In this document: piece after piece, positions 9,388-54,165 of the stretch | How the letters are laid out: every line of letters begins with the position of its first letter | How positions within the stretch are numbered: the stretch's first letter is position 1 | Virus record (IMG/VR): IMGVR_UViG_3300034272_001471 | Span: 1 to 61,028 of that record | Source of the DNA: a virus | Reading direction: 5' to 3' (one strand) | DNA length: 61,028 nucleotides | Notes under the pieces: model-generated | Seen by the model: only the letters and a program-made list of their open reading frames with translations | Told to the model about the DNA's origin: nothing | Databases searched by the model: none | Translations under genes and position numbers: made by a program

Positions 9388-9448
9388 CTTTCTGGTTGGT
9401 GCGTGCGGTATCATTGCCTTGGGTTACTGGCTGAGTAGAGGTGACTGA
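9374..9448 (+). CDS. tiny membrane peptide, 24 aa
   Basis: The ATG at 9374 follows GGAGGTTCGCA and the stop overlaps the recombinase ATG (TGATG). The product MEVVDFLVGACGIIALGYWL plus SRGD is almost entirely a membrane span. Low coding length, but the SD and the coupling support translation. Confidence 0.45.
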   Translation: MEVVDFLVGACGIIALGYWLSRGD

Positions 9449-10218
9449 TGATCCATCTGTACGCCCGTGTATCTACCGACAAGCAGGAGAACGGCCGGGA
9501 GGCCCAGGCCAGCCGGCTCCTGGCCTGGGTGGGGGACAAGGGCTATCAGTTGTGGGTGGATGAGGATGTCTCAGCCTACCGCAACCGCCTGCCTGACCGG
9601 CCGGCTGGGAAGAAGATGTACGACGCCCTGGAGGAAGGCGACACGGTGGTCATCACCAAGATCGACCGTGCCTTCCGCCGGATGTACGACTTCGCCGTCA
9701 CACGCGAGCAGTGGGAGAAGCTGGGCGTGCAGTTGGTGATCCTGGACCTGCCCGACAATCTGTCGGGTCCGCACGGTAGGTTCTTCCTGTCGATGCTCGT
9801 CGCTGCCGGCGAGCTGGAGTCGGAGATGCACGGGCTCCGTAAGCGGGAGGTCTACGCCCACAAGCAGCGGCAGGGCGTGCCCTATGGTACGCTCCGCCCC
9901 TTCGGCTGGTCGGTCAAGACCACCGCCGCAGGTATGGAGTGGGTCCCCAACGACCGAGAGCGGGCCGCATGCCAGCAGGCCATCGCCCTGAAGGAGCAGG
10001 GCAAGAGCCTGTTTGAAATCGCTATCGCCCTGTCTGCGGCCGGCGTGAAGAAGCCTCGCCGGAGGAAGGATTGCTCCGACTTCTATCACGTGAAAGACAT
10101 TCACCTGATGGTCCGGGCGGCGGCAGCCGGATATCCAAAGATTGCGCGAGAATCTTTGCGAGGGCCCGGCTACGAACAGAGGCTAGCCGAAGCGAGATCC
10201 CGTGGTCGGCCGCTATAG
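9448..10218 (+). CDS. serine recombinase (resolvase/invertase family), 256 aa
   Basis: The N-terminal catalytic domain starts LYARVST (nucleophile Ser9), followed by TVVITKIDRAFRRMYDF (Arg residues of the active site) and ELESEMHGLRKRE (E-helix). After about residue 150 comes a segment resembling the start of the large-recombinase domain, then an HTH-like tail, but the protein is far shorter than large phage integrases. It may act in inversion, resolution or immunity switching. Its last 197 nt overlap the sigma-like gene on the opposite strand. Confidence 0.88.
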   Translation: MIHLYARVSTDKQENGREAQASRLLAWVGDKGYQLWVDEDVSAYRNRLPDRPAGKKMYDALEEGDTVVITKIDRAFRRMYDFAVTREQWEKLGVQLVILDLPDNLSGPHGRFFLSMLVAAGELESEMHGLRKREVYAHKQRQGVPYGTLRPFGWSVKTTAAGMEWVPNDRERAACQQAIALKEQGKSLFEIAIALSAAGVKKPRRRKDCSDFYHVKDIHLMVRAAAAGYPKIARESLRGPGYEQRLAEARSRGRPL

Positions 10219-10636
10219 TTCGCAGGGTATGCCCCTTCTGGAATCGGTCCTGCGCTAACGAGTGGTGTTCGTCCAGGTCGCGGATCGCCATGCCCAGGTA
10301 GTCCGGAGACTCCACCACATGGACGATCTCGCCGGCTTCCTCCAGGCTGATCTTGCTGGAGCCGGGCTGGCGGCTGGACTTCTTCACCGCCTTGCACATG
10401 GAGTTGAGGACAGCTCGGGCGAAGTACGCCTTGGGGTATGGCAGTCTCTTCTTGTCGTACGTGCGGGCCGCCTTGGTCAGGGCCAGGAACCCTTCCGCCT
10501 CCAGGTCGGGCAGCATGGCTGCCTTCTGCCAACCGGGGCGTGCCTTCAGGAAGAACCTCGCCAACATCCTGGCGAGCGGAACGTACTCAGTGACTAGGTC
10601 TTGTCGATGCTTTGAGAGTCGCGATCTCTGTCTCAT
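10022..10636 (-). CDS. sigma-70-family-like factor, 204 aa
   Basis: The segment LVTEYVPLARMLARFF... and DLEAEGFLALTKAARTYD resembles sigma region 2, YFARAVLNSMCKAVKK continues it, and HTLRTIAADHGISLRLASVRSRAL fits the region 4 helix-turn-helix. Start taken at ATG 10636, within the end of the upstream gene; the SD is weak. The last 65 residues lie antisense to the serine recombinase and look unstructured. As the last gene of the leftward unit it may redirect host RNA polymerase to phage promoters (inference). Confidence 0.7.
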   Translation of the reverse strand: MRQRSRLSKHRQDLVTEYVPLARMLARFFLKARPGWQKAAMLPDLEAEGFLALTKAARTYDKKRLPYPKAYFARAVLNSMCKAVKKSSRQPGSSKISLEEAGEIVHVVESPDYLGMAIRDLDEHHSLAQDRFQKGHTLRTIAADHGISLRLASVRSRALAKILAQSLDIRLPPPGPSGECLSRDRSRSNPSSGEASSRRPQTGR

Positions 10637-10811
10637 GTTGGTCCAGCCTGGTTTCATGCTCGGCCAGCGCGTCTCGCAACTCCTGCACCATTGCAGGCAG
10701 ATGCTCCACGGCACTGGCAATCACCGCCACCTTGGCATGGATGCTGAAAGCCCACGGCACCACTGCCGCAGAGGCGCTCACCAGCACCAGCCACATCTCA
10801 ATCTCAGTCAT
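10587..10811 (-). CDS. small membrane protein with coiled coil, 74 aa
   Basis: The ATG at 10811 follows GGAGG. One membrane span (about residues 6-26, WLVLVSASAAVVPWAF), then a coiled-coil-like ELRDALAEHETRLDQHETEI. This architecture fits a small holin or a spanin-like lysis accessory protein. Location among membrane and protease genes supports a lysis role, but the class is not certain. Confidence 0.65.
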   Translation of the reverse strand: MTEIEMWLVLVSASAAVVPWAFSIHAKVAVIASAVEHLPAMVQELRDALAEHETRLDQHETEIATLKASTRPSH

Positions 10812-11028: not shown

Positions 11029-11270
11029 TTGGCTATCCAATTACTGACCAGCGAAATGATGATGGGCAGCACAAAGATCAGGAATATGGAGCCGCACTCC
11101 GGGTTTGCCTGGACGAACGACCGCCTGATCTCACGCCTGTACGCCCGCATGTTGACGGGCGGATCCGGGGCAACCAGCAGGGCAGTGAGCGCGACCGTCT
11201 TGGCGTAGTCGCTGAGTCCGCGGGCACCTGATTCCCTCAAGCACTGGTCGGCTATGTCCGTGGCACGCAT
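10890..11270 (-). CDS. small membrane protein, 126 aa
   Basis: The ATG at 11270 gives a helical N-terminal half (residues 1-55), then a clear membrane span FLIFVLPIIISLVSNWIA (about residues 63-80). The last 45 residues overlap the next gene in another frame and look less protein-like, so the true end could be altered by a frameshift. Possible holin-like or membrane-anchor role. Confidence 0.55.
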   Translation of the reverse strand: MRATDIADQCLRESGARGLSDYAKTVALTALLVAPDPPVNMRAYRREIRRSFVQANPECGSIFLIFVLPIIISLVSNWIAKWIINRTDMRSVRVGAFDALSDLSPRWMGTPTSTSSRPTRRTGRRK

Positions 11271-11596
11271 TGGCCGTTCTCACATTTGGTACTACCAACC
11301 CTACGCGGTGGCTGGATGGGGATCGGGCGCGGCGGCGCCGCAGGTGGCGGGGCCGGTGGAGGTGGGGGTGCAGGCGGAGGGTCAGCCGGCCGCTTGCACT
11401 CGCAGTCAGACGGGCAGGGGCACGGAGTTGTGTGCCCATCGCCGTGGACAATGACGCCGTTCCTGCAGGAGCCGCAGCACTTCTTGGCCACGGGCTCAAC
11501 CGCCGCAGTGTGCAGGGTGTAGGCCGCTTCGACCGCCACCCGCTCAGTGAGGATGGGGGCAGCGAACATCGCCAGGAACCAGAGCAAACTATCCAT
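11252..11596 (-). CDS. secreted Cys- and Pro-rich protein, 114 aa
   Basis: N-terminal hydrophobic segment (MDSLLWFLAMFAAPIL) acting as signal peptide or anchor. It is followed by a Cys cluster (CCGSCRNG, CPCPSDCEC), a proline-rich linker (about residues 70-97) and a C-terminal CENGQC. Likely exported and disulfide- or metal-stabilised. It lies directly downstream of the intein-containing peptidase, overlapping by 8 nt, so it may be part of a lysis or envelope-disruption set (inference). Confidence 0.65.
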   Translation of the reverse strand: MDSLLWFLAMFAAPILTERVAVEAAYTLHTAAVEPVAKKCCGSCRNGVIVHGDGHTTPCPCPSDCECKRPADPPPAPPPPPAPPPAAPPRPIPIQPPRRVGSTKCENGQCVPRT

Positions 11597-13742
11597 GGCG
11601 GAGCAGTCCTATGGTGCCGTAGTCAGGCAGACGCTGCGGTGGGTAGCCGTCGATGGACCCGTACACCCAGCAGTCGCCGTCCTCCACGCAGACATTGAAG
11701 TCGTCGGCCGATGTCAAGATCATCCCCGGCACCCACTCGCCGTACTCCTTGGGCCAGCCCTTCGGCTTCTGGTTCCAATGCCACCAAGAATTGGGGATCA
11801 TCCACACGCGGAACGGGAAGAACTCCTTGGTGTCGTCGTAGCCGGCGATGGCCATGTCATGTTTCCACCCACCCGGCGTGCGGTAGTGGACGCCCTTGGC
11901 GTTGGAGTCCACTGACCAGGACGCATACTGCCCGGAGTGAGCGGCGTACCCATTGAACAGGGCGTCCATCAGGTCAGCCTGCGACCGGACCTGTGTGATC
12001 ACGCCCACCTTATTCTTGCGGCAAAGCTCGCGGACGCTCTCCGGCACACCCGACCGCCCCCAGCGGGCGCCGATGGAGGAGTCGTACTTCGACAGGTCCA
12101 CCACCCCGTCGTACTTGGTGCGAGCCAGGAAGCCAACGTCCCGCTCAAACCTGGACGCCAAGCCCGGGCTCATGCCCTGGCCGCCATGCCCACGCGCCCC
12201 GTAGGTGGGCTCGGTGGCGCCCATGCGGAACCACTCTTCGGGCTCCTTCTTCACCAGGATCTCAACCGCCCTGGTCATGTCCCGGGCATTGCGACTACCG
12301 TGGCTGACGCAGTTATGCACTGCGTACCCGTTGGCGATGAATGCGTGGTCGCACTCCACCTCCAAGCAATAAACCGTTCCAGCAAACGGCGATACCTCAA
12401 TGCTGGCAACCCGCGCCGAGAATCCGCCATCGACCTTTACGGTCAGCGACCTCCGCCCGCCTTCCAATGCTGGTGGTCGGAGCTTCGCTGGAAACAAAGC
12501 GGCTGCGCTGTCGCCGTAGAAATGCACCTCGGAGGCGACCTTTGACCTGCCCCGCGGTTTGCGAGCGACCTCCGTGCATCGGATGCCGCAGGACATGGAC
12601 AAGTATTTCATGTCCCTGACAAGACCGCGGCATACAGATACGCCGCTGGCTCGGCACATCTTGTACTTGGACTTATGCCTAAGTCCGTTTTGCACATGCC
12701 CATCGCCCTCCATCCAGCCGCGCACGCACGCAAGACGAACGGCCGATGGCGAACCAAGGATTTCTTTAGGGACCCGCTTGGTATAGGTGTTCCCCTCGCC
12801 GCACGCCCGATATATCCACCTTGCAAATGGCGCGCACGGAAACTCAACGAACAGACAATTCGGCTTTGATGGCAGCACCCGAATCTTTGCAGGCACTCCG
12901 AGCTTGTCCTGCAAAATGCTGCGCAAGCACTTGGCGATATGAACCTCGTCGCGGCACAGGTTCCACACAAGGTTGGTAGCCGCGCCGCGTTTCGACTTTC
13001 CTGTTGACCCTTCGGCAAGCCATAGGCCGATGACCCACGCCATGTCGGCGTCCAAGGTTACATGCCTGTTGCACTCGTACTTAGCCCCGGAGATCCGCAC
13101 CTTGCCATCGCCGGCTCGGATTCGTCGGGGCTTGGATGCAACCTGCGCAAACTCATTCGGGTCTTGCGAGCATCCATCCTCATTGGCAAGGTCTATTGTG
13201 TGCAGATGCTCGCTGGCAATGCTTGTCGCCGGCAGCAGCACCCGCGATCCCTGGGCCAGTGCGTCGGCCCGAACCCAAGCCCTCTCTGATTCATTCAGCG
13301 GCGAGACGAACAGGTGGTCGGGAGTTGCTACAACAGCGTCCAAGCACCCCTCTGCACGCACGGAAACGACGCTGCCTGTGTACGGCTTGCTGAATGTCGA
13401 AAGCACTCGCCGCTTCCCGCCGAAAGGCGATGCGATAATGTCTCCACTCAGCACATCTTCAATGGCCTTTTCGGTGCCGTCGCCCATTCGCACAAGGGTG
13501 CCGGCAACGAAGCAGTCTCCAGTCGTTTGCTTCTCAGTAAAACATTTGGAGTCCAGCTTCTGTGCGTACTGCCAAAGGAGCGCACGCTTCCCGATGCCGA
13601 CGCCTTTGATGTTCGGTTCAGAGAAGTACTGGTACTTCTGCGTCTCCAGGAACTCCGAGTTGGCGCGGGCGTTGAACGTCCAGCCGGAGAGGCCGTCTTC
13701 GTACGCCCTTAGCAGGGAGTGCGGGGTGTCGAACTCACTCAC
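11589..13742 (-). CDS. papain-like cysteine peptidase precursor with intein, 717 aa
   Basis: The GTG at 13742 overlaps the previous stop (GTGAGTGAG) and has GGAG 7 nt upstream. Residues 1-76 and 478-717 form the peptidase; residues 77-477 are an intein. The spliced 316-aa product would carry Gln72, Cys77 (TTGDCVSHG), His227 (GGWKHDMAI) and Asn250 in IPNSWW, matching the C1-peptidase Gln/Cys/His/Asn set and the NSW motif. The intein interrupts the motif exactly before the catalytic Cys, so the precursor must be inactive until splicing. No signal peptide. Its place among holin-like genes suggests cell-envelope degradation or host takeover (inference). Confidence 0.85.
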   Translation of the reverse strand: MSEFDTPHSLLRAYEDGLSGWTFNARANSEFLETQKYQYFSEPNIKGVGIGKRALLWQYAQKLDSKCFTEKQTTGDCFVAGTLVRMGDGTEKAIEDVLSGDIIASPFGGKRRVLSTFSKPYTGSVVSVRAEGCLDAVVATPDHLFVSPLNESERAWVRADALAQGSRVLLPATSIASEHLHTIDLANEDGCSQDPNEFAQVASKPRRIRAGDGKVRISGAKYECNRHVTLDADMAWVIGLWLAEGSTGKSKRGAATNLVWNLCRDEVHIAKCLRSILQDKLGVPAKIRVLPSKPNCLFVEFPCAPFARWIYRACGEGNTYTKRVPKEILGSPSAVRLACVRGWMEGDGHVQNGLRHKSKYKMCRASGVSVCRGLVRDMKYLSMSCGIRCTEVARKPRGRSKVASEVHFYGDSAAALFPAKLRPPALEGGRRSLTVKVDGGFSARVASIEVSPFAGTVYCLEVECDHAFIANGYAVHNCVSHGSRNARDMTRAVEILVKKEPEEWFRMGATEPTYGARGHGGQGMSPGLASRFERDVGFLARTKYDGVVDLSKYDSSIGARWGRSGVPESVRELCRKNKVGVITQVRSQADLMDALFNGYAAHSGQYASWSVDSNAKGVHYRTPGGWKHDMAIAGYDDTKEFFPFRVWMIPNSWWHWNQKPKGWPKEYGEWVPGMILTSADDFNVCVEDGDCWVYGSIDGYPPQRLPDYGTIGLLRHG
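12312..13514 (-). other. intein, 401 aa, with LAGLIDADG endonuclease
   Basis: Begins Cys1 in CFVAGTLVRMGDG (Hint block A) and ends HAFIANGYAVHN followed by Cys+1, with the usual penultimate His and terminal Asn. Block B is seen as VVATPDHLF. Two dodecapeptide motifs, WVIGLWLAEGS and VRGWMEGDGH, mark a LAGLIDADG homing endonuclease in the centre. All residues needed for splicing are present. Insertion is at D-C in TTGD|CVSHG of the host peptidase. Confidence 0.9.
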
Positions 13743-14139
13743 TCTGCCGCTCCACTTCCTTGCAGGCAGCGACGATCTGCCCTGCCACCACCTCATCCAC
13801 AGGCACGTTGTCCTGGGTGTAGTGCTTGGCCAGCACCGCTTCGACTGCCTTGTCTAGGCCGGGGTACTTCCCGACGAGGCCGGTCCCGCCAGCGGCCAGC
13901 CGGAGCGCGTCTTGGTAGACGGCGCGCCACGCTGACGTTGTGGTGATCAGCCGGCCTTTGTCCCTGGCCATCACCTCACCGAGCGCTCGGTACAGGCGGC
14001 CCACTGTGGCTCGGTCGGCATAGGAAGCCGACGCTAGAGCCGTGCGTACGGGACCAGTCGCGGCTGGCCGCTGGGCTCCGACAACAAACGACAACGCCAC
14101 CAACGCAACGGCGAGTGCCAGGGGGATGTGCCTATTCAT
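13735..14139 (-). CDS. secreted or membrane-anchored protein, 134 aa
   Basis: The ATG at 14139 gives an N-terminal signal or anchor (MNRHIPLALAVALVALSFVV) and then a soluble helical domain of about 105 residues. No catalytic motif recognised. Overlaps both neighbours by a few nt. It may be an exported lysis or envelope factor because of its neighbours. Confidence 0.65.
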   Translation of the reverse strand: MNRHIPLALAVALVALSFVVGAQRPAATGPVRTALASASYADRATVGRLYRALGEVMARDKGRLITTTSAWRAVYQDALRLAAGGTGLVGKYPGLDKAVEAVLAKHYTQDNVPVDEVVAGQIVAACKEVERQSE

Positions 14140-14342
14140 TTGAGCAGCGCCTGAAGAAGGGAGTTGCACGCGGCCTTGACCTCCTCCGACTGAGCGTTGT
14201 CGCGGATCTTGATCACGCTCTCCAGGTGCCGCAGCGTGTTGCTCTTGGCCGGCAGCCGGAATCCAGATACCTGCGGGAGGGCGAACTGCCACAGCACTAC
14301 AACTCCCAGGACGGCGAGCGACAGGATTTGAAAGAGACTCAC
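14136..14342 (-). CDS. small single-span membrane protein, 68 aa
   Basis: A GTG at 14342 overlaps the stop of the subtilisin-like gene (CTGTGAG), with GGAG 11 nt upstream. N-terminal span FQILSLAVLGVVVLWQF (residues 4-20), then a polar helical tail. Holin- or pinholin-like in size and topology; function not proven. Confidence 0.6.
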   Translation of the reverse strand: MSLFQILSLAVLGVVVLWQFALPQVSGFRLPAKSNTLRHLESVIKIRDNAQSEEVKAACNSLLQALLK

Positions 14343-15277
14343 AGTATCTTGGCTCCGGGGATCCACAGCGTCACGCCTCCAACGGAGGACCGCACCTCGT
14401 AGTTCAGCAGCTTGTGGGGATCGACGAGTCCCCACCCATAGATCGAATCCCGGCCCGCCGCCCCGGCATCGCGGCAGGTTTCGGACAGGGCTTTGACGAC
14501 GCCAGCATGGTCTACCTTGCCGCCGGCCTGCTTCTGGGCGCTCACGTACAGGGCGAGCGTGCCGACCACAAACGGCGCTGCCATGCTCGTCCCGCTCACC
14601 GTGGCGTAGCCGTCTCCAAGCCATGTGGATGTAATGTCCTGGCCGGGCGCAGCCACTGCGATCTCCTTGCCACGGCTGCTGAACTCGCACGCATTGCCAT
14701 GCCTGTCCACTGCACCCACAGCCAGCGTTTCCTGGAACGCGGCCGGGTAGTTGACCGAAGCACCGTCGTTTCCGGCGGCGCACACCACCACCACGCCCGC
14801 AGCATGCGCGGCCTTGATCGCAGCATGGAGCTGGGCATCAGGCCGGCTACTGCCGAGCGACATGCAGATGAGGTCTGCCTTCGCCTCAGTCGCATGTCGA
14901 ACCGCCTGGGATACCGCATCGTTGCTGCCCATCCCGGAATGGCCCAGGACTTTGAGCGACAGCAGCTTGGCCTCCGGGGCAATCCCCTTGGCCGCGCCGC
15001 TCTTTGCCCCGATCACGCCAGCCACGTGCGTGCCATGGCCAAGCGTGTCGTAGACGTTGCCGTCGCTGCTGAAGTTGCGGTAGTCCTCAACCTGCAAGGC
15101 CGGGTGGGGAGCGACTCCGCTGTCCACCACTGCCACCGTAACGCCTGCCCCCTTGGTTGTGCGCCAAAGCAGCGGTATGCCGTACGCCTCCAACGACCAG
15201 TCCACCCCATCCGCCATCGACTGCGATGCCTGGACGATGTCAACCCGGTACGGTGGTAGGTGTACGTATCCGCTCAC
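14339..15277 (-). CDS. subtilisin-like serine protease (S8 family), 312 aa
   Basis: Catalytic triad visible: Asp52 in VAVVDSG, His81 in HGTHVAG, Ser231 in GTSMAAP, with oxyanion Asn170 in AAGND. No propeptide and no signal peptide, so it is made in the cytoplasm and would need release or a membrane hole. The GTG start overlaps the previous stop. The last 25 residues form a short extension. One of several proteases clustered here. Confidence 0.92.
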   Translation of the reverse strand: MSGYVHLPPYRVDIVQASQSMADGVDWSLEAYGIPLLWRTTKGAGVTVAVVDSGVAPHPALQVEDYRNFSSDGNVYDTLGHGTHVAGVIGAKSGAAKGIAPEAKLLSLKVLGHSGMGSNDAVSQAVRHATEAKADLICMSLGSSRPDAQLHAAIKAAHAAGVVVVCAAGNDGASVNYPAAFQETLAVGAVDRHGNACEFSSRGKEIAVAAPGQDITSTWLGDGYATVSGTSMAAPFVVGTLALYVSAQKQAGGKVDHAGVVKALSETCRDAGAAGRDSIYGWGLVDPHKLLNYEVRSSVGGVTLWIPGAKIL

Positions 15278-45444: not shown

Positions 45445-47439
45445 CTATTGGGCCGGAGGGCCTTCGGGGGGTGCGGGAGGTCCTTCTAGCCCCGGCGGCG
45501 GGCCGGGGGGCGGAGGAGGGACGAGGAACTCCGAAACGTCCATCTGGTTGACCCGGCCCCACGTTGACAGGAGGGCGTTGAAGATCTCGGGCTTGCCGGC
45601 CTGCAACATCCCCTGCGACACCGGAGCCAGGATCTGCATCAGGTTGTTCAGGTTCTCGGTCTTGGTGGCGATGTTCGGCTTGCGTGCCGAGCCGGCCTCC
45701 ACCCGATACGAGTACTCCCGGACGATGTTGTCTGGGAGTTCGTTTTGGACATGCATGCCCCACGCCTGGGCTGCCATCGGCCCAAGGAGAGGCTCCACAT
45801 CCTGCGGGGAGATCAGCCACCGCGCCATCAGGGCCTCCTTGCGGGCGACCTCAGACAGCCGGTCTTCCAGCGTGTTGGCGTAATCGTCGGGCCTGACCGA
45901 GATTTGCTCGCTCTTCACGGCGGCTTCTGCCGCACTTCTGAAGGAGCTTCTGGTCATACCATAAATAAGCTCGGTCAAGCCCACCCGGCGGTCGAACATC
46001 TCCGTGACAGCCTGGACGATGTTGTACATGTCTTGGGTGACGCCGGGCATCTGGAACACCGAGATGACATCGTTCACCGAGCGGCCCACAGCCTCGGAGA
46101 TTTCTACGATGTTGAAGCCGCCTTCGCTCTTCTCCAGGATCTTCGATTTGATGTCCGGGTCCGCGGCCTTCGCCACGCCGATGAGCGTCTGCGAGGAGGT
46201 GGCAATGCGGGTCGCCAGGAACGACATCGCCCAGTTGATGAACCGCAGCTCACCGATGCCGGGCTTGATCAGACTGATCGGCCAGGAGTAGCCGGGCTGG
46301 CGATGCCAATCCAAGAGCGTGAACGGCCACCCGTTCGGCTCTGCCCAGAAGGGGATCGGCCACTGGCAAGACATGAACAGCGTCTGCGGGACGCCCGTCT
46401 CGTCCACCTCCTCTTGGAGCATGGCCGGCGGAGCGTTCAGGGGGAAGTCGATTCCCTCCGCGACGACGATGTAGCAGTTGGGCCCCAAGGCGTCGAACTT
46501 GCCTCGCAGGTCACGGTCGGCGTCCTTCAGCCGGTCGCCAAACCCAGTCTTGCTGTAGACCTCCCAGTAGCAGATCAGGTCGTTGGTCTTGCCAGTCTTC
46601 TTCTTGTGTTCGTAGCCCCGGCTGCCCTGCTCGGCCCGGGTGGAGTAGGACTCAATGTGCCCCTTCAGCTCCGAGCGATCCAGGCCGAACTTGGCCGCAA
46701 CGTCGTCGATGGGCTGCACTCGCCTCCGGGCCGCCCAGCGAATGTCGTCGAACTCGTCCGCGTCCGGGTCCCACACCAAGTTGTCGATGGAGTCATAGAA
46801 CGACCCAGCCAACTTCACGGCAGATCCGGGCGGCTGGTACAGCTCATGCCACCACACCCCAGCACCCTTAATGAACGCCTCGTCCACCACCTTGCGAGTG
46901 TGCCGCTTCAGGTCCAGTTCGTTCGGGGTGTAGTTCAGGTAGTCTTCCAGGAGTTTGGCGATCAACTTGCGCCGCTCGTACATGAACCCCTGCTGCTGGA
47001 CGGCCTGCTGGTAGGCCATCATCATCATGTCTGGCATCATCACCATCTGGCCGTCCGGCCCCATGACCGGCTGGCCATCTGGCCCCATCTGCGGAACCGG
47101 CGGCTGGGGTTGAATCCCCAGCATCGCCGGGCCGATCAGCGGATAGTCCTTGGGGGAGACAGTCCGCTGGGGGTTGCGGTGATGGATGACAGACCCAAAG
47201 AGAGTGACCGCCTCAAAGACGCGGTTCACCACCATCCGGTACGGAGGCGCCGAAATGCCCTTGTTGTAGCCCCGCTCGCCCCGGGAATGCTCGTTGCCCC
47301 ACATGGCGTTGGGGTCCGACGAGTAGAAGCCCATGGCTTCCTTGGCGTCGTCGGTGAAGGCTTTCTTGTGGGCTTCAGCCTGCTTAATGCACTCCAGCCA
47401 GCGCTTGGCTATCGGGCGCAGGGGATTGTCGTCGGGCAT
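45445..47439 (-). CDS. portal protein, 664 aa
   Basis: The ATG at 47439 follows AGGAGACGCC. Directly downstream of the large terminase cluster. Size and sequence features fit a podovirus/P22-type portal: an N-terminal helical HKKAFTDDAKEAMGFY, PYRMVVNRVFEAVTLFG, and a C-terminal stalk with GLTELIYGM and SEQISVRPDD. The C-terminus is Pro-rich. Forms the dodecameric DNA channel. Confidence 0.82.
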   Translation of the reverse strand: MPDDNPLRPIAKRWLECIKQAEAHKKAFTDDAKEAMGFYSSDPNAMWGNEHSRGERGYNKGISAPPYRMVVNRVFEAVTLFGSVIHHRNPQRTVSPKDYPLIGPAMLGIQPQPPVPQMGPDGQPVMGPDGQMVMMPDMMMMAYQQAVQQQGFMYERRKLIAKLLEDYLNYTPNELDLKRHTRKVVDEAFIKGAGVWWHELYQPPGSAVKLAGSFYDSIDNLVWDPDADEFDDIRWAARRRVQPIDDVAAKFGLDRSELKGHIESYSTRAEQGSRGYEHKKKTGKTNDLICYWEVYSKTGFGDRLKDADRDLRGKFDALGPNCYIVVAEGIDFPLNAPPAMLQEEVDETGVPQTLFMSCQWPIPFWAEPNGWPFTLLDWHRQPGYSWPISLIKPGIGELRFINWAMSFLATRIATSSQTLIGVAKAADPDIKSKILEKSEGGFNIVEISEAVGRSVNDVISVFQMPGVTQDMYNIVQAVTEMFDRRVGLTELIYGMTRSSFRSAAEAAVKSEQISVRPDDYANTLEDRLSEVARKEALMARWLISPQDVEPLLGPMAAQAWGMHVQNELPDNIVREYSYRVEAGSARKPNIATKTENLNNLMQILAPVSQGMLQAGKPEIFNALLSTWGRVNQMDVSEFLVPPPPPGPPPGLEGPPAPPEGPPAQ

Positions 47440-47463: not shown

Positions 47464-47787
47464 CTACTTGCGACTTTTGGGGTCCAGGGCCTCCAGCTTC
47501 TTCTCCAGGAGGGAAACACGCTCGGAAAGCAGGGTAAACTTGGGGTCCCTGGGCCGATGCTCCCAGAACCCGTACCGCTTCCATTCCGGGAACTCGTTGA
47601 CGCCCTCGTCCGAGATATGGTGGACAGACGGCCGGATAATCACCCCCGACTCCCCCGACATGGCGTACAGGGTCAGGGTGCGGGCCGCCGCCTTGCAGAC
47701 AATCGCCGGCACGTGCGGGGCGCCTTCATGGACCTGGAACAGGACGATCTCGCCAACTTCCGCCTGCGGCATTTCGTAGTTGCTCAT
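47464..47787 (-). CDS. hypothetical protein, 107 aa
   Basis: The ATG at 47787 was preferred (GGGAGTATC upstream). A small beta-barrel-like start (GEIVLFQVHEGAPHVPAIVCK), then a C-terminal coiled coil (LLSERVSLLEKKLEAL). Found between terminase and portal genes in many podoviruses. Role unknown. Confidence 0.65.
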   Translation of the reverse strand: MSNYEMPQAEVGEIVLFQVHEGAPHVPAIVCKAAARTLTLYAMSGESGVIIRPSVHHISDEGVNEFPEWKRYGFWEHRPRDPKFTLLSERVSLLEKKLEALDPKSRK

Positions 47788-49478
47788 CGACTGATACTCC
47801 CATTGGGGGCTAGGAACACACACGGATCTTCGGACTTGCGCTCACGGGCCAGCCGGGCGGCCCGCCACTTCACCCACCATGGTTCGGGGCCGACCTGAGA
47901 CGGCGGCCGGTGGTATCGCGGCTCGTAGGCACAGAGGTATTCGGCTGTCTGGCAGGCATGGACCTCGCCCCGCGTCTGCGGCTCGTCGGTCACGTACACC
48001 TGCCCGTTGACTGTACTCGTCTTCTTCCGGTATCGCTTCAGCTCCCGGACGAGGTTGGGGCAGCCGCCCTCCAGGATTTTGAACTTGGTCGTCCCGTCGC
48101 CACGGATGTGCATCATCTGCCTGACCATGGCAGTGCGAGACGGGATGTCGTCCGAGCCGGGCAGGAACTGATGGCCCGTCAGGGCGAATTTGACGTTCCG
48201 CTTCTTCAGCTCCTCGGAGTACAGCTCATGCGGGAGCCGGCCGGACCCAAGGTCGCGCAGGGCTCCACCATGCATGTCCATGATCGCCGCGTAGATGTAC
48301 TGGTGCTGGGCCTTGGCGCAGAACTGCTCGCCCCAGATCAGGGCGTTGCAGTTGCGGATGTACAGCTCGTCATAGAAGAGAAGGAACTTCTCGTCTGGGG
48401 GCACGGCTGCAAACAGCGTGGCCATGACGGCGTGCCCGGGGTCAATCGCAACGTACCGCGTCCACTCAGGCGGGATCTGGCCGTCAGGCAATTTCGACCG
48501 GCCCATCATGTGGACCGACGCATTGAACGTCGGGTACATGAGCGTGGAGCCGGTGGTGAACTCGCCCTCGGCGCGCATCTTCAGTTCGTCCGGGCCGAGC
48601 GCCGCCCACCGCTCCAGGTTCTTTTTCTTCTCCTCCTGGTCGATGTGGTCGTTGTCCAAGAATCGGAGGACGAACTTCCGGATGATGGGGTTTTCAATCC
48701 CCTCCTCTTCTGCCTTGTCGGCCCGCTCGCACAGGCCAAGTAGGGCGTCATTCTTGGACCACGGCATGGCCGACCAGACGAAGCGCCCCTTGCGATCCGA
48801 GAGGCGGGCCTGCATTTCCCCCACCCAGCGCTCATTGTTGATGTCTTCGTCGATATGAACGAGGTCGGCCTGGAAGCCCTGCGGAGGCTCTCCCTCTGAC
48901 GAGAAGCAGTAGATGGTCCAGCCGTTGGTCAACTCGGCCTTATTGAGGTAGCCGGCGTTCTTCTGGGTCCACGCCATGTCCTTGATCATGCGCGGCGGGA
49001 TTAGGGGAGGGGCCGGCTTGGACTGGGCCTTCCGTTCGATGTCGCCAAGAAGCGCGGGGTTGAAGGCGCGCCACATCCCAGTCGTCCTGTCCCGGATGAT
49101 CCGGAACGCCCCGGCCTTGAACAACATCGGATACACCACCATGCCGATGTGCTGCCAGTTCTTGCCGATGATGACGAGGTTGCCACCTTCCTTCGGGTAC
49201 TTGTTGTGCGGGTCCTGCCCTGTAGCGGCGCGGGCATCTTCGATGAACGTGCATGCACTCTTGCCGGATCTGTTGCCACCGATTACCAGACGTTCACTGG
49301 CGATGCAGGAATGGAACTCCTCCTGCTTCGGCATGGGCACCCATAGACGCAGTGCCTCCAGACGACGCTCAGTGAGCGCAGCCTGAACGTCCTTCATCTG
49401 CGAAAGGGCGTGTTGCGTCAGCCCGCCGATTGGGCCTTCAGCCTTCGGCGGGGGTGGTATCTTCGGATGCTTTGGCAT
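47784..49478 (-). CDS. terL: terminase large subunit, 564 aa
   Basis: Walker A GGNRSGKS (67-74), Walker B ADLVHIDED (Asp/Glu at about 210-212) and RNase-H-like nuclease start AIDPGHAVMA (about 340). Drives DNA packaging at the portal. The start is uncertain: ATG 49478 or TTG 49490, both with poor SD and overlapping the end of the upstream gene. Confidence 0.9.
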   Translation of the reverse strand: MPKHPKIPPPPKAEGPIGGLTQHALSQMKDVQAALTERRLEALRLWVPMPKQEEFHSCIASERLVIGGNRSGKSACTFIEDARAATGQDPHNKYPKEGGNLVIIGKNWQHIGMVVYPMLFKAGAFRIIRDRTTGMWRAFNPALLGDIERKAQSKPAPPLIPPRMIKDMAWTQKNAGYLNKAELTNGWTIYCFSSEGEPPQGFQADLVHIDEDINNERWVGEMQARLSDRKGRFVWSAMPWSKNDALLGLCERADKAEEEGIENPIIRKFVLRFLDNDHIDQEEKKKNLERWAALGPDELKMRAEGEFTTGSTLMYPTFNASVHMMGRSKLPDGQIPPEWTRYVAIDPGHAVMATLFAAVPPDEKFLLFYDELYIRNCNALIWGEQFCAKAQHQYIYAAIMDMHGGALRDLGSGRLPHELYSEELKKRNVKFALTGHQFLPGSDDIPSRTAMVRQMMHIRGDGTTKFKILEGGCPNLVRELKRYRKKTSTVNGQVYVTDEPQTRGEVHACQTAEYLCAYEPRYHRPPSQVGPEPWWVKWRAARLARERKSEDPCVFLAPNGSISR

Positions 49479-49656
49479 GTTTTTTTGCAAGAAAACGTGA
49501 CGCAGGGCTGGGCGTCCATTCGCCGCACTGGTCAGTGGGGCCGGTCAGCGGGAAGGAGTTGTTGTCCGGGCCCGCTATCGGCGGGTATCTCCGGCACTTG
49601 CCGAATGTCTCCGACACTGCCTGCCACCAGCGGCAGGTTTGGCACACTATGTCCAT
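49438..49656 (-). CDS. small zinc-binding-like protein, 72 aa
   Basis: The ATG at 49656 follows GAGGTGGTCG. CQTCRWW, GKCRRYPP and QCGEW give four to five Cys positions, a pattern common in small phage proteins next to terminases. Overlaps both the upstream gene and the terminase start out of frame. Confidence 0.65.
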   Translation of the reverse strand: MDIVCQTCRWWQAVSETFGKCRRYPPIAGPDNNSFPLTGPTDQCGEWTPSPASRFLAKKHAKASEDTTPAEG

Positions 49657-53052: not shown

Positions 53053-54165
53053 TTAGACGACGAGCTTGAAGAAGTTACGCGGGCTCTTGAACTTGAGGTT
53101 ACCGAGCGTGGACACCACGTAGCGATATTGCTGCGTGATTTCGTCGTAAAACGGTCCCTCGCTGGTCAGCAAGTTCCCTTCCATGCAGAGCAGTTCGATG
53201 TTGCCCGTAGCCAGACCGTAGCCGGTGTTGGCGGGGACACTCACCTCGCTCCCGACCTCCACGCCGTCGAACTCAAACACATCCGTGAAGCCGTAGCTCC
53301 GCAGGCCGTTGGTCCGGCTGACGATCACCCGCTCCTTGGAATCCAGCGTGTTGAGGAAGTCGATGTACAGCCGCCGGTCCAAGAGGACCATGTCGATCTG
53401 GTCCTCCTTCGTATCGTTCCGGCGAGTTTGATGGATCGCCTCACGCAGCGCCTTGGAGCAGTTCTCCTTCCAGGTCGAAGCCCCGAAGTACGAGCTGTCC
53501 GCATTCACAATCACCGGGCTGAAGAAGTCGAACTCAGGATCGACCTCGCCGTCCGGCCAGGTGGCCGTCGCATCGCCCGACCCACCGTACGCACCAAGGA
53601 CGGTCGAAAGACCGGCGTAGGAGTCGTTGGGGTAGTAGAAGCGATCCGCCGTGTTGGCCGTGCGGGCCGTAGCGCCCGCCGCACCTTCCTGGATCGTCTG
53701 AGTGGCGTTCATGAACGACTCAATGCCGTGGAACCGAAGCTCGTTCCCGGAGGCATAGCCGTCCTGGACCCACTCCTTGGCAAGATACTGCTCCATCGAC
53801 GTTTGCAGGCGGCTCGCCAGCTTGCCGGCGACGTTCACCAGAGCCTGGGCGCTCCGATTTTCCAGCATCTCTTTCTTGTAGATGGCGTCCGTAACTTGGG
53901 CACCCCGGTACTCAAGCTCTAGCTTCTTCCACAGGTTCTCGCGGGCGAACGAGCGGGGAGTCTCGCCGTTGTTGCCCGAAGGATTGTGGTTCCTGTACTG
54001 GATCTCCCAGTCGAAGCCACGGCCACTCATGTTGGTGCGGATACGGCCCGCGCCCTCCAAGGCAGCGAAGAACTTAAACTTACGCAACGAAGCGACCTCT
54101 TCCTCCCGAAGGTGGTTGATGATCGTCGTTGCAATGGAACGTGCCCAGTCAGTCGAACTGCTCAT
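53053..54165 (-). CDS. major capsid protein, 370 aa
   Basis: Follows the scaffold gene with an overlapping stop/start and GGAGTGATCTG. Helical N-terminus, then alternating strands and helices of an HK97-like shell protein (VDPEFDFFSPVIVNADSSYFGA, DMVLLDRRLYIDFLNTLDSKERV). Followed by a decoration candidate and a strong terminator, fitting high expression. Confidence 0.82.
   Translation of the reverse strand: MSSSTDWARSIATTIINHLREEEVASLRKFKFFAALEGAGRIRTNMSGRGFDWEIQYRNHNPSGNNGETPRSFARENLWKKLELEYRGAQVTDAIYKKEMLENRSAQALVNVAGKLASRLQTSMEQYLAKEWVQDGYASGNELRFHGIESFMNATQTIQEGAAGATARTANTADRFYYPNDSYAGLSTVLGAYGGSGDATATWPDGEVDPEFDFFSPVIVNADSSYFGASTWKENCSKALREAIHQTRRNDTKEDQIDMVLLDRRLYIDFLNTLDSKERVIVSRTNGLRSYGFTDVFEFDGVEVGSEVSVPANTGYGLATGNIELLCMEGNLLTSEGPFYDEITQQYRYVVSTLGNLKFKSPRNFFKLVV

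Follow-up and report, generated by a model that had tools for sequence, protein, structure and literature searches.

In an uncultured tailed phage, a mobile class 1 LAGLIDADG intein has very probably settled immediately before the predicted catalytic cysteine of an enzyme of papain-like (clan CA) type. The +1 residue of this intein is also the predicted nucleophile of the enzyme, so enzyme activity should require splicing.

An intein interrupts a papain-like gene of a tailed phage

The window, by which we mean the whole stretch of DNA analyzed, is a 61,028-base virus record of a tailed phage. Its genes include those for a terminase large subunit (TerL; phrog_2; 47784-49490, minus strand), which is intein-free and reads GGNRSGKS, a portal (phrog_156; 45445-47439), a major head protein (phrog_9953; 53053-54165) and a baseplate-like protein, together with an ERF-type recombination gene (26248-26910). 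The papain-like gene lies on the minus strand, next to a gene for an S8 subtilase (14342-15277, minus strand) that is also intein-free here. Directly downstream of the papain-like gene (11252-11596, minus strand) is the gene for a small protein that starts with a hydrophobic stretch and has a tail rich in Cys and Pro. Short, membrane-type peptides, judged by eye, are encoded nearby. Beside the peptidase module is a gene for a Sigma-70 region 2-like protein (10025-10720, minus strand; 22.7 bits against a Pfam cut-off of 24), possibly a late-gene sigma factor. A serine recombinase gene (Resolvase, E 5e-27; 9448-10218, plus strand) runs opposite to the surrounding genes, and the phage may, given this recombinase, be temperate.

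The reading frame of the papain-like gene (11589-13796, minus strand) is open throughout and spans 735 amino acids. The N-extein (13515-13742) runs from a probable GTG start at 13742 to the residues QTTGD; the 401-residue intein (12312-13514; CFVAG...AVHN) follows; and the C-extein (11592-12311) begins with CVSHG and is followed by a stop codon at 11589-11591. An earlier note on this sequence had placed the intein at exactly these positions, splitting TTGD|CVSHG before the cysteine, and had named a catalytic Cys, His and Asn; our reading of the frame confirms both the boundaries and the residue numbers. In the numbering of the spliced protein, the intein +1 cysteine (12309-12311) is Cys77, the predicted nucleophile, and the predicted catalytic His and Asn are His227 (11859-11861) and Asn250 (11790-11792), the latter in an NSW motif that reads NSWW here. 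All of these features are on the minus strand.

The insert shows the motifs expected of a class 1 intein: Cys1 in block A (13512-13514), a block B TxxH motif (TPDH; 13314-13325), the penultimate His and terminal Asn of block G (12312-12317), and the +1 Cys. Two LAGLIDADG motifs, WVIGLWLAEGST (13002-13037) and CVRGWMEGDG (12699-12728), keep their acidic residues; these coordinates, too, are on the minus strand. Three profiles scored above their cut-offs: Pfam Intein_splicing (E=7e-9, 36.1 against 35.8 bits), Pfam LAGLIDADG_3 (E=3.5e-5, 24.4 against 22.5 bits) and NCBIfam intein_Cterm (25.1 against 15.6 bits). In a six-frame run on the window record, PF14890 reached 26.2 bits, which is below cut-off. 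A phmmer comparison matched the intein to PI-PkoII (E 8.6e-4). The structure model of the precursor is weak (pLDDT 57, pTM 0.43), and we used the family of its Foldseek matches rather than its geometry; even so, it matches VMA inteins and PI-SceI with E down to 3.6e-10. The block F Asp is absent, a Cys standing in its place in VYCLEVE; this Asp is not obligatory, as only about 60% of inteins have it according to PMC7765530.

The insertion is not a product of chance, since in near relatives the gene for this protein cleanly lacks the 401 codons and three other contigs carry an allelic intein at the same bond. Cys1, TxxH, both LAGLIDADG motifs and the terminal His-Asn are common to the window intein and the two allelic inteins aligned with it, and the intein of contig L058 shows the same motifs. 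Together, these data confirm that the insert at 12312-13514 is a class 1 LAGLIDADG intein.

The host protein has a predicted papain-like fold

A Pfam search with the exteins of the window gave no match, even with the E threshold relaxed to 1, and PDB sequence searches with the extein family returned nothing credible. Among 24 relatives, 12 matched Peptidase_C1 (PF00112), none more than weakly (lowest E 0.0025); the protein of L001, an intein-free homologue, scored 15.5 bits, below the gathering score of 20.7. We modeled this L001 protein together with 24 relatives using AlphaFold2 (pLDDT 75, pTM 0.81). In the model, the long helix of the papain-like fold (residues 78-97) begins at the Cys, and both this Cys and a Gln at position -5 are invariant among the relatives. 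The best solved Foldseek match was xylellain (E 4.6e-6), the others listed being cathepsins and other papain-family peptidases, and VIA-align superposed the model on xylellain with a Z score of 16.8 and an rmsd of 3.1 over 224 residues. In an hhalign comparison with six proteins that pass PF00112 (probability 95%, E 3.6e-8), the His falls opposite the His of these proteins and the Asn opposite the Asn of their NSWG motif; the match spans the His and Asn and not the Cys.

The predicted fold is thus that of xylellain and the papain-family (C1) peptidases, with the same Cys...His...NSWG order, whereas the sequence is too distant for the Pfam cut-off and the N-terminal part and long insertions differ. 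By modeled fold and residues the host protein is papain-like; by score it is not a member of PF00112. These results agree with the earlier proposal that the protein is papain-like and has the Cys, His and Asn at its active site.

On the basis of the model, the host enzyme is probably a protease. A less likely reading, though one with appreciable weight, is that the same Cys-His-Asn set serves a papain-like fold in another role, for example as a peptidoglycan hydrolase, an amidase or an acyltransferase. The matches to viral models, among which the top named are Peptidase C1 proteins, also include proteins annotated as muramidase or peptidoglycan-binding, and the membrane-type peptides encoded nearby would suit such a role; the top solved fold matches, however, are all C1 peptidases. 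Were the enzyme not a protease, our account of the intein would be unchanged, because that account concerns the Cys, and only the word protease would differ.

Relatives mostly have empty sites and retain the predicted catalytic residues

To place the insertion among relatives, we scanned viral contigs and genomes. With the C-extein as query, the viral contigs yielded six loci, all intein-free and aligning straight across the junction; a profile scan yielded 28 more rows, partly from the same contigs. The profile scan of 84,980 genomes yielded one contig, L036 (3,631 bases, titled Synechococcaceae MAG), which may be a binned phage piece. With a scan for the neighboring subtilase added, the total came to 80 contigs, of which 66 contain the papain-like gene; it is complete in 64, the two contigs with a truncated gene not being counted as complete. 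Against 50,697 phage records, tblastn of the C-extein gave 0 matches. In searches for named-phage neighbors, TerL gave five hits that were weak and partial, and the intein matched nothing closer than inteins of 21-31% identity, which lie in genes for tRNA synthetase, RNR, TerL and methylase.

Of these 64 contigs, to which the window is additional, 61 are intein-free, with the exteins exactly joined, and all 61 read D-Cys at the site with a Gln five residues before. The Cys and His are kept in all 64, and the Asn in 59. In the other five (L049, L053, L062, L078 and L079), Gln replaces the catalytic Asn, in the form MQEWG or MQSWG. The earlier note had singled out intein-free homologues as the comparison by which to judge its claim, and this comparison, like the L001 model, supports the view that the Cys at the splice junction is the predicted nucleophile. 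The residue after NSW is G in 54 and A in 5 of the 64 other contigs, so that all 59 NSW-bearing genes have G or A where the window has W.

By amino-acid conservation the insertion site ranks 23-40 of about 300, which places it in one of the better conserved parts of the protein. By nucleotide conservation it does not stand out in the family, ranking 255 of 924 for ±15 nt and 492 of 934 for ±10 nt. An exceptionally conserved DNA target is thus not supported. Because the protein around the site is conserved and the DNA is not, protection of the residue fits better.

The intein has moved laterally

The intein is present in 4 of 65 genes, counting the window. The other carriers, L007, L031 and L058, have allelic inteins at the same bond that are 96%, 57% and 59% identical to that of the window. 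All three were also recovered by scans with exteins or the neighboring gene; when the intein or its alignment served as the query, in two scans, no carrier other than L007 and L031 was added. In an extein tree of 57 distinct sequences including the window (L005, whose protein is identical to that of L004, was left out, and 7 identical sequences were merged), the carriers are dispersed among empty relatives. The empty L001 and L011 lie beside the window and L007; L065 adjoins L031; and the empty L026 and L027 (90-91% identical) adjoin L058. The exteins of L001 are 87% identical to those of the window, and those of L026 are 91% identical to those of L058.

Comparison of the window with L007 at the DNA level revealed an island of identity: the intein is 96-97% identical and the rest 66-81%, with segments that straddle the junctions at 89%. 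The dS is 0.087 for the intein (bootstrap 95% 0.059-0.128) and 0.96 for the exteins (0.74-1.32), and four-fold sites differ at 16 of 215 positions in the intein compared with 72 of 130 in the exteins. The dN/dS of the intein is approximately 0.21 (0.018/0.087), which shows purifying selection. Since the dS of the intein is so far below that of the exteins, these sequences indicate that the intein has recently spread laterally and is still under selection, as homing, which the earlier note had proposed, predicts. Recent transfer is evident in this one carrier pair; the other intein pairs, at 57-59% identity, are close to their exteins (57-64%) and are uninformative on recency.

Inteins occupy other catalytic motifs in the phage group

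The neighboring subtilase gene is present in 64 of the 66 contigs that have the papain-like gene. In L016, the subtilase contains a 410-residue intein (L016:1479-2708; LGHG|C...N|THCAG) at HG|TH, two residues after the catalytic His of the HGTH motif, as positioned in subtilisin. This intein is unrelated to those of the papain-like gene (25-26% identical), and the papain-like gene of L016 is empty. The subtilase intein is the only one among the 76 contigs with a complete subtilase gene, and a scan with part of it (L016:1476-2657, a query that takes in the codon preceding the intein but not the intein's end) found its own contig only. We saw no record in which both peptidases are caged.

The phage of L023 has a third insertion site, in TerL. 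The 288-residue intein (L119:1670-2533, minus strand) interrupts the Walker A motif (GGNR|C...HN|SGKS) of a protein whose exteins are 74% identical to the TerL of the window; by its size, it perhaps lacks a full endonuclease. It was the one addition from a PF14890 search that covered 38 records, against 80 contigs in the whole set. The six inteins seen in the phage group, four in papain-like genes, one in a subtilase and one in TerL, all lie in catalytic motifs.

The earlier note had suggested that dependence on splicing might be a switch, for timing or for safety, on a toxic enzyme. In the form considered here, the intein would be kept in the manner of a zymogen, with slow or conditional splicing (controlled by redox state, metal or temperature) delaying the peptidase until late infection. 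With a Cys at either junction, control by redox state or metal is chemically plausible; other inteins are known to splice conditionally (PMC7765530); and in this phage group each of the two neighboring peptidases can have its active site caged. In a broader form, the catalytic centers of two neighboring peptidases of different chemistry (the Cys peptidase at its nucleophile, the subtilase beside its catalytic His) would be repeatedly occupied by inteins, splicing would amount to zymogen activation for a late module, and its speed would set when the module switches on. We consider the switch improbable, and the broader form marginally more so: 61 of 65 genes manage without the intein, the close relatives L001 and L026 among them; recent lateral movement needs no benefit, and a parasite would suffice; and the two peptidases were never seen caged together. 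Nothing in our analysis shows that the enzyme is toxic.

Least probable of all is that the intein is dead and the gene a broken relic: the missing block F Asp and the NSWW motif would fit decay, but the frame is open over its 735 codons, all splicing nucleophiles are present, the dN/dS of the intein is low, and the C-extein shares 81-88% identity with those of the three nearest relatives that lack the intein.

Discussion

Our preferred account is that of a mobile intein lodged at a catalytic nucleophile. The precursor would be translated whole, and it should be inactive, because the oxyanion Gln is separated by 401 residues from the helix that starts at the nucleophile. The intein Cys1 and the +1 Cys would then perform two acyl transfers, the terminal Asn would cyclize, and the exteins would be joined through the very Cys that afterwards serves as the enzyme's nucleophile. 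The intein is predicted both to splice and to cleave the empty site, an activity that the contrast in dS between intein and exteins supports indirectly: the endonuclease would cut alleles that lack the intein when relatives co-infect, and the intein would be copied in by phage recombination, for which the ERF-type gene is a candidate. The catalytic site may act as a refuge: the +1 Cys is not free to change, and loss of the intein by anything but a precise deletion would inactivate the enzyme.

Comparable systems are known. Like the VMA inteins/PI-SceI and PI-PkoII, the window intein has a LAGLIDADG endonuclease nested among Hint splicing blocks; it differs in its low identity to them and in its new host protein and new insertion site. 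The mycobacteriophage TerL inteins, as described in PMC5050341, are likewise phage inteins that bear endonucleases, sit in a catalytic motif (the P-loop) and spread horizontally, and some were shown to splice and cut; an intein of that kind occurs in the phage of L023. Here, in contrast, the host is a peptidase, with the +1 residue as its predicted covalent nucleophile. Inteins in the chloroplast ClpP of algae (PMC5784728) also interrupt a peptidase, but ClpP is a serine peptidase of another fold.

Insertion near active sites is an established statistical rule for inteins. How far a position lies from the active site is a predictor of insertion, with an AUC of 0.79 (PMC3359363), inteins near active sites are reported for phages too (PMC5050341), and such insertion has been explained as a refuge from deletion (PMC7765530). 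Our searches of open-licence PMC papers turned up no report of a papain-like or subtilisin-like peptidase that hosts an intein, and a prior description may exist elsewhere.

The finding extends the hosts of phage inteins beyond DNA metabolism. As the nucleophile of the intein +1 residue and that of the enzyme are the same atom, enzyme activity would directly report splicing, and thiol-reactive inhibitors could act on both splicing and catalysis. Four carriers and dozens of empty alleles, together with two further insertion sites, one in the neighboring subtilase and one in TerL, form a natural set that is suited to testing whether active-site inteins are refuge-seeking parasites or regulators.
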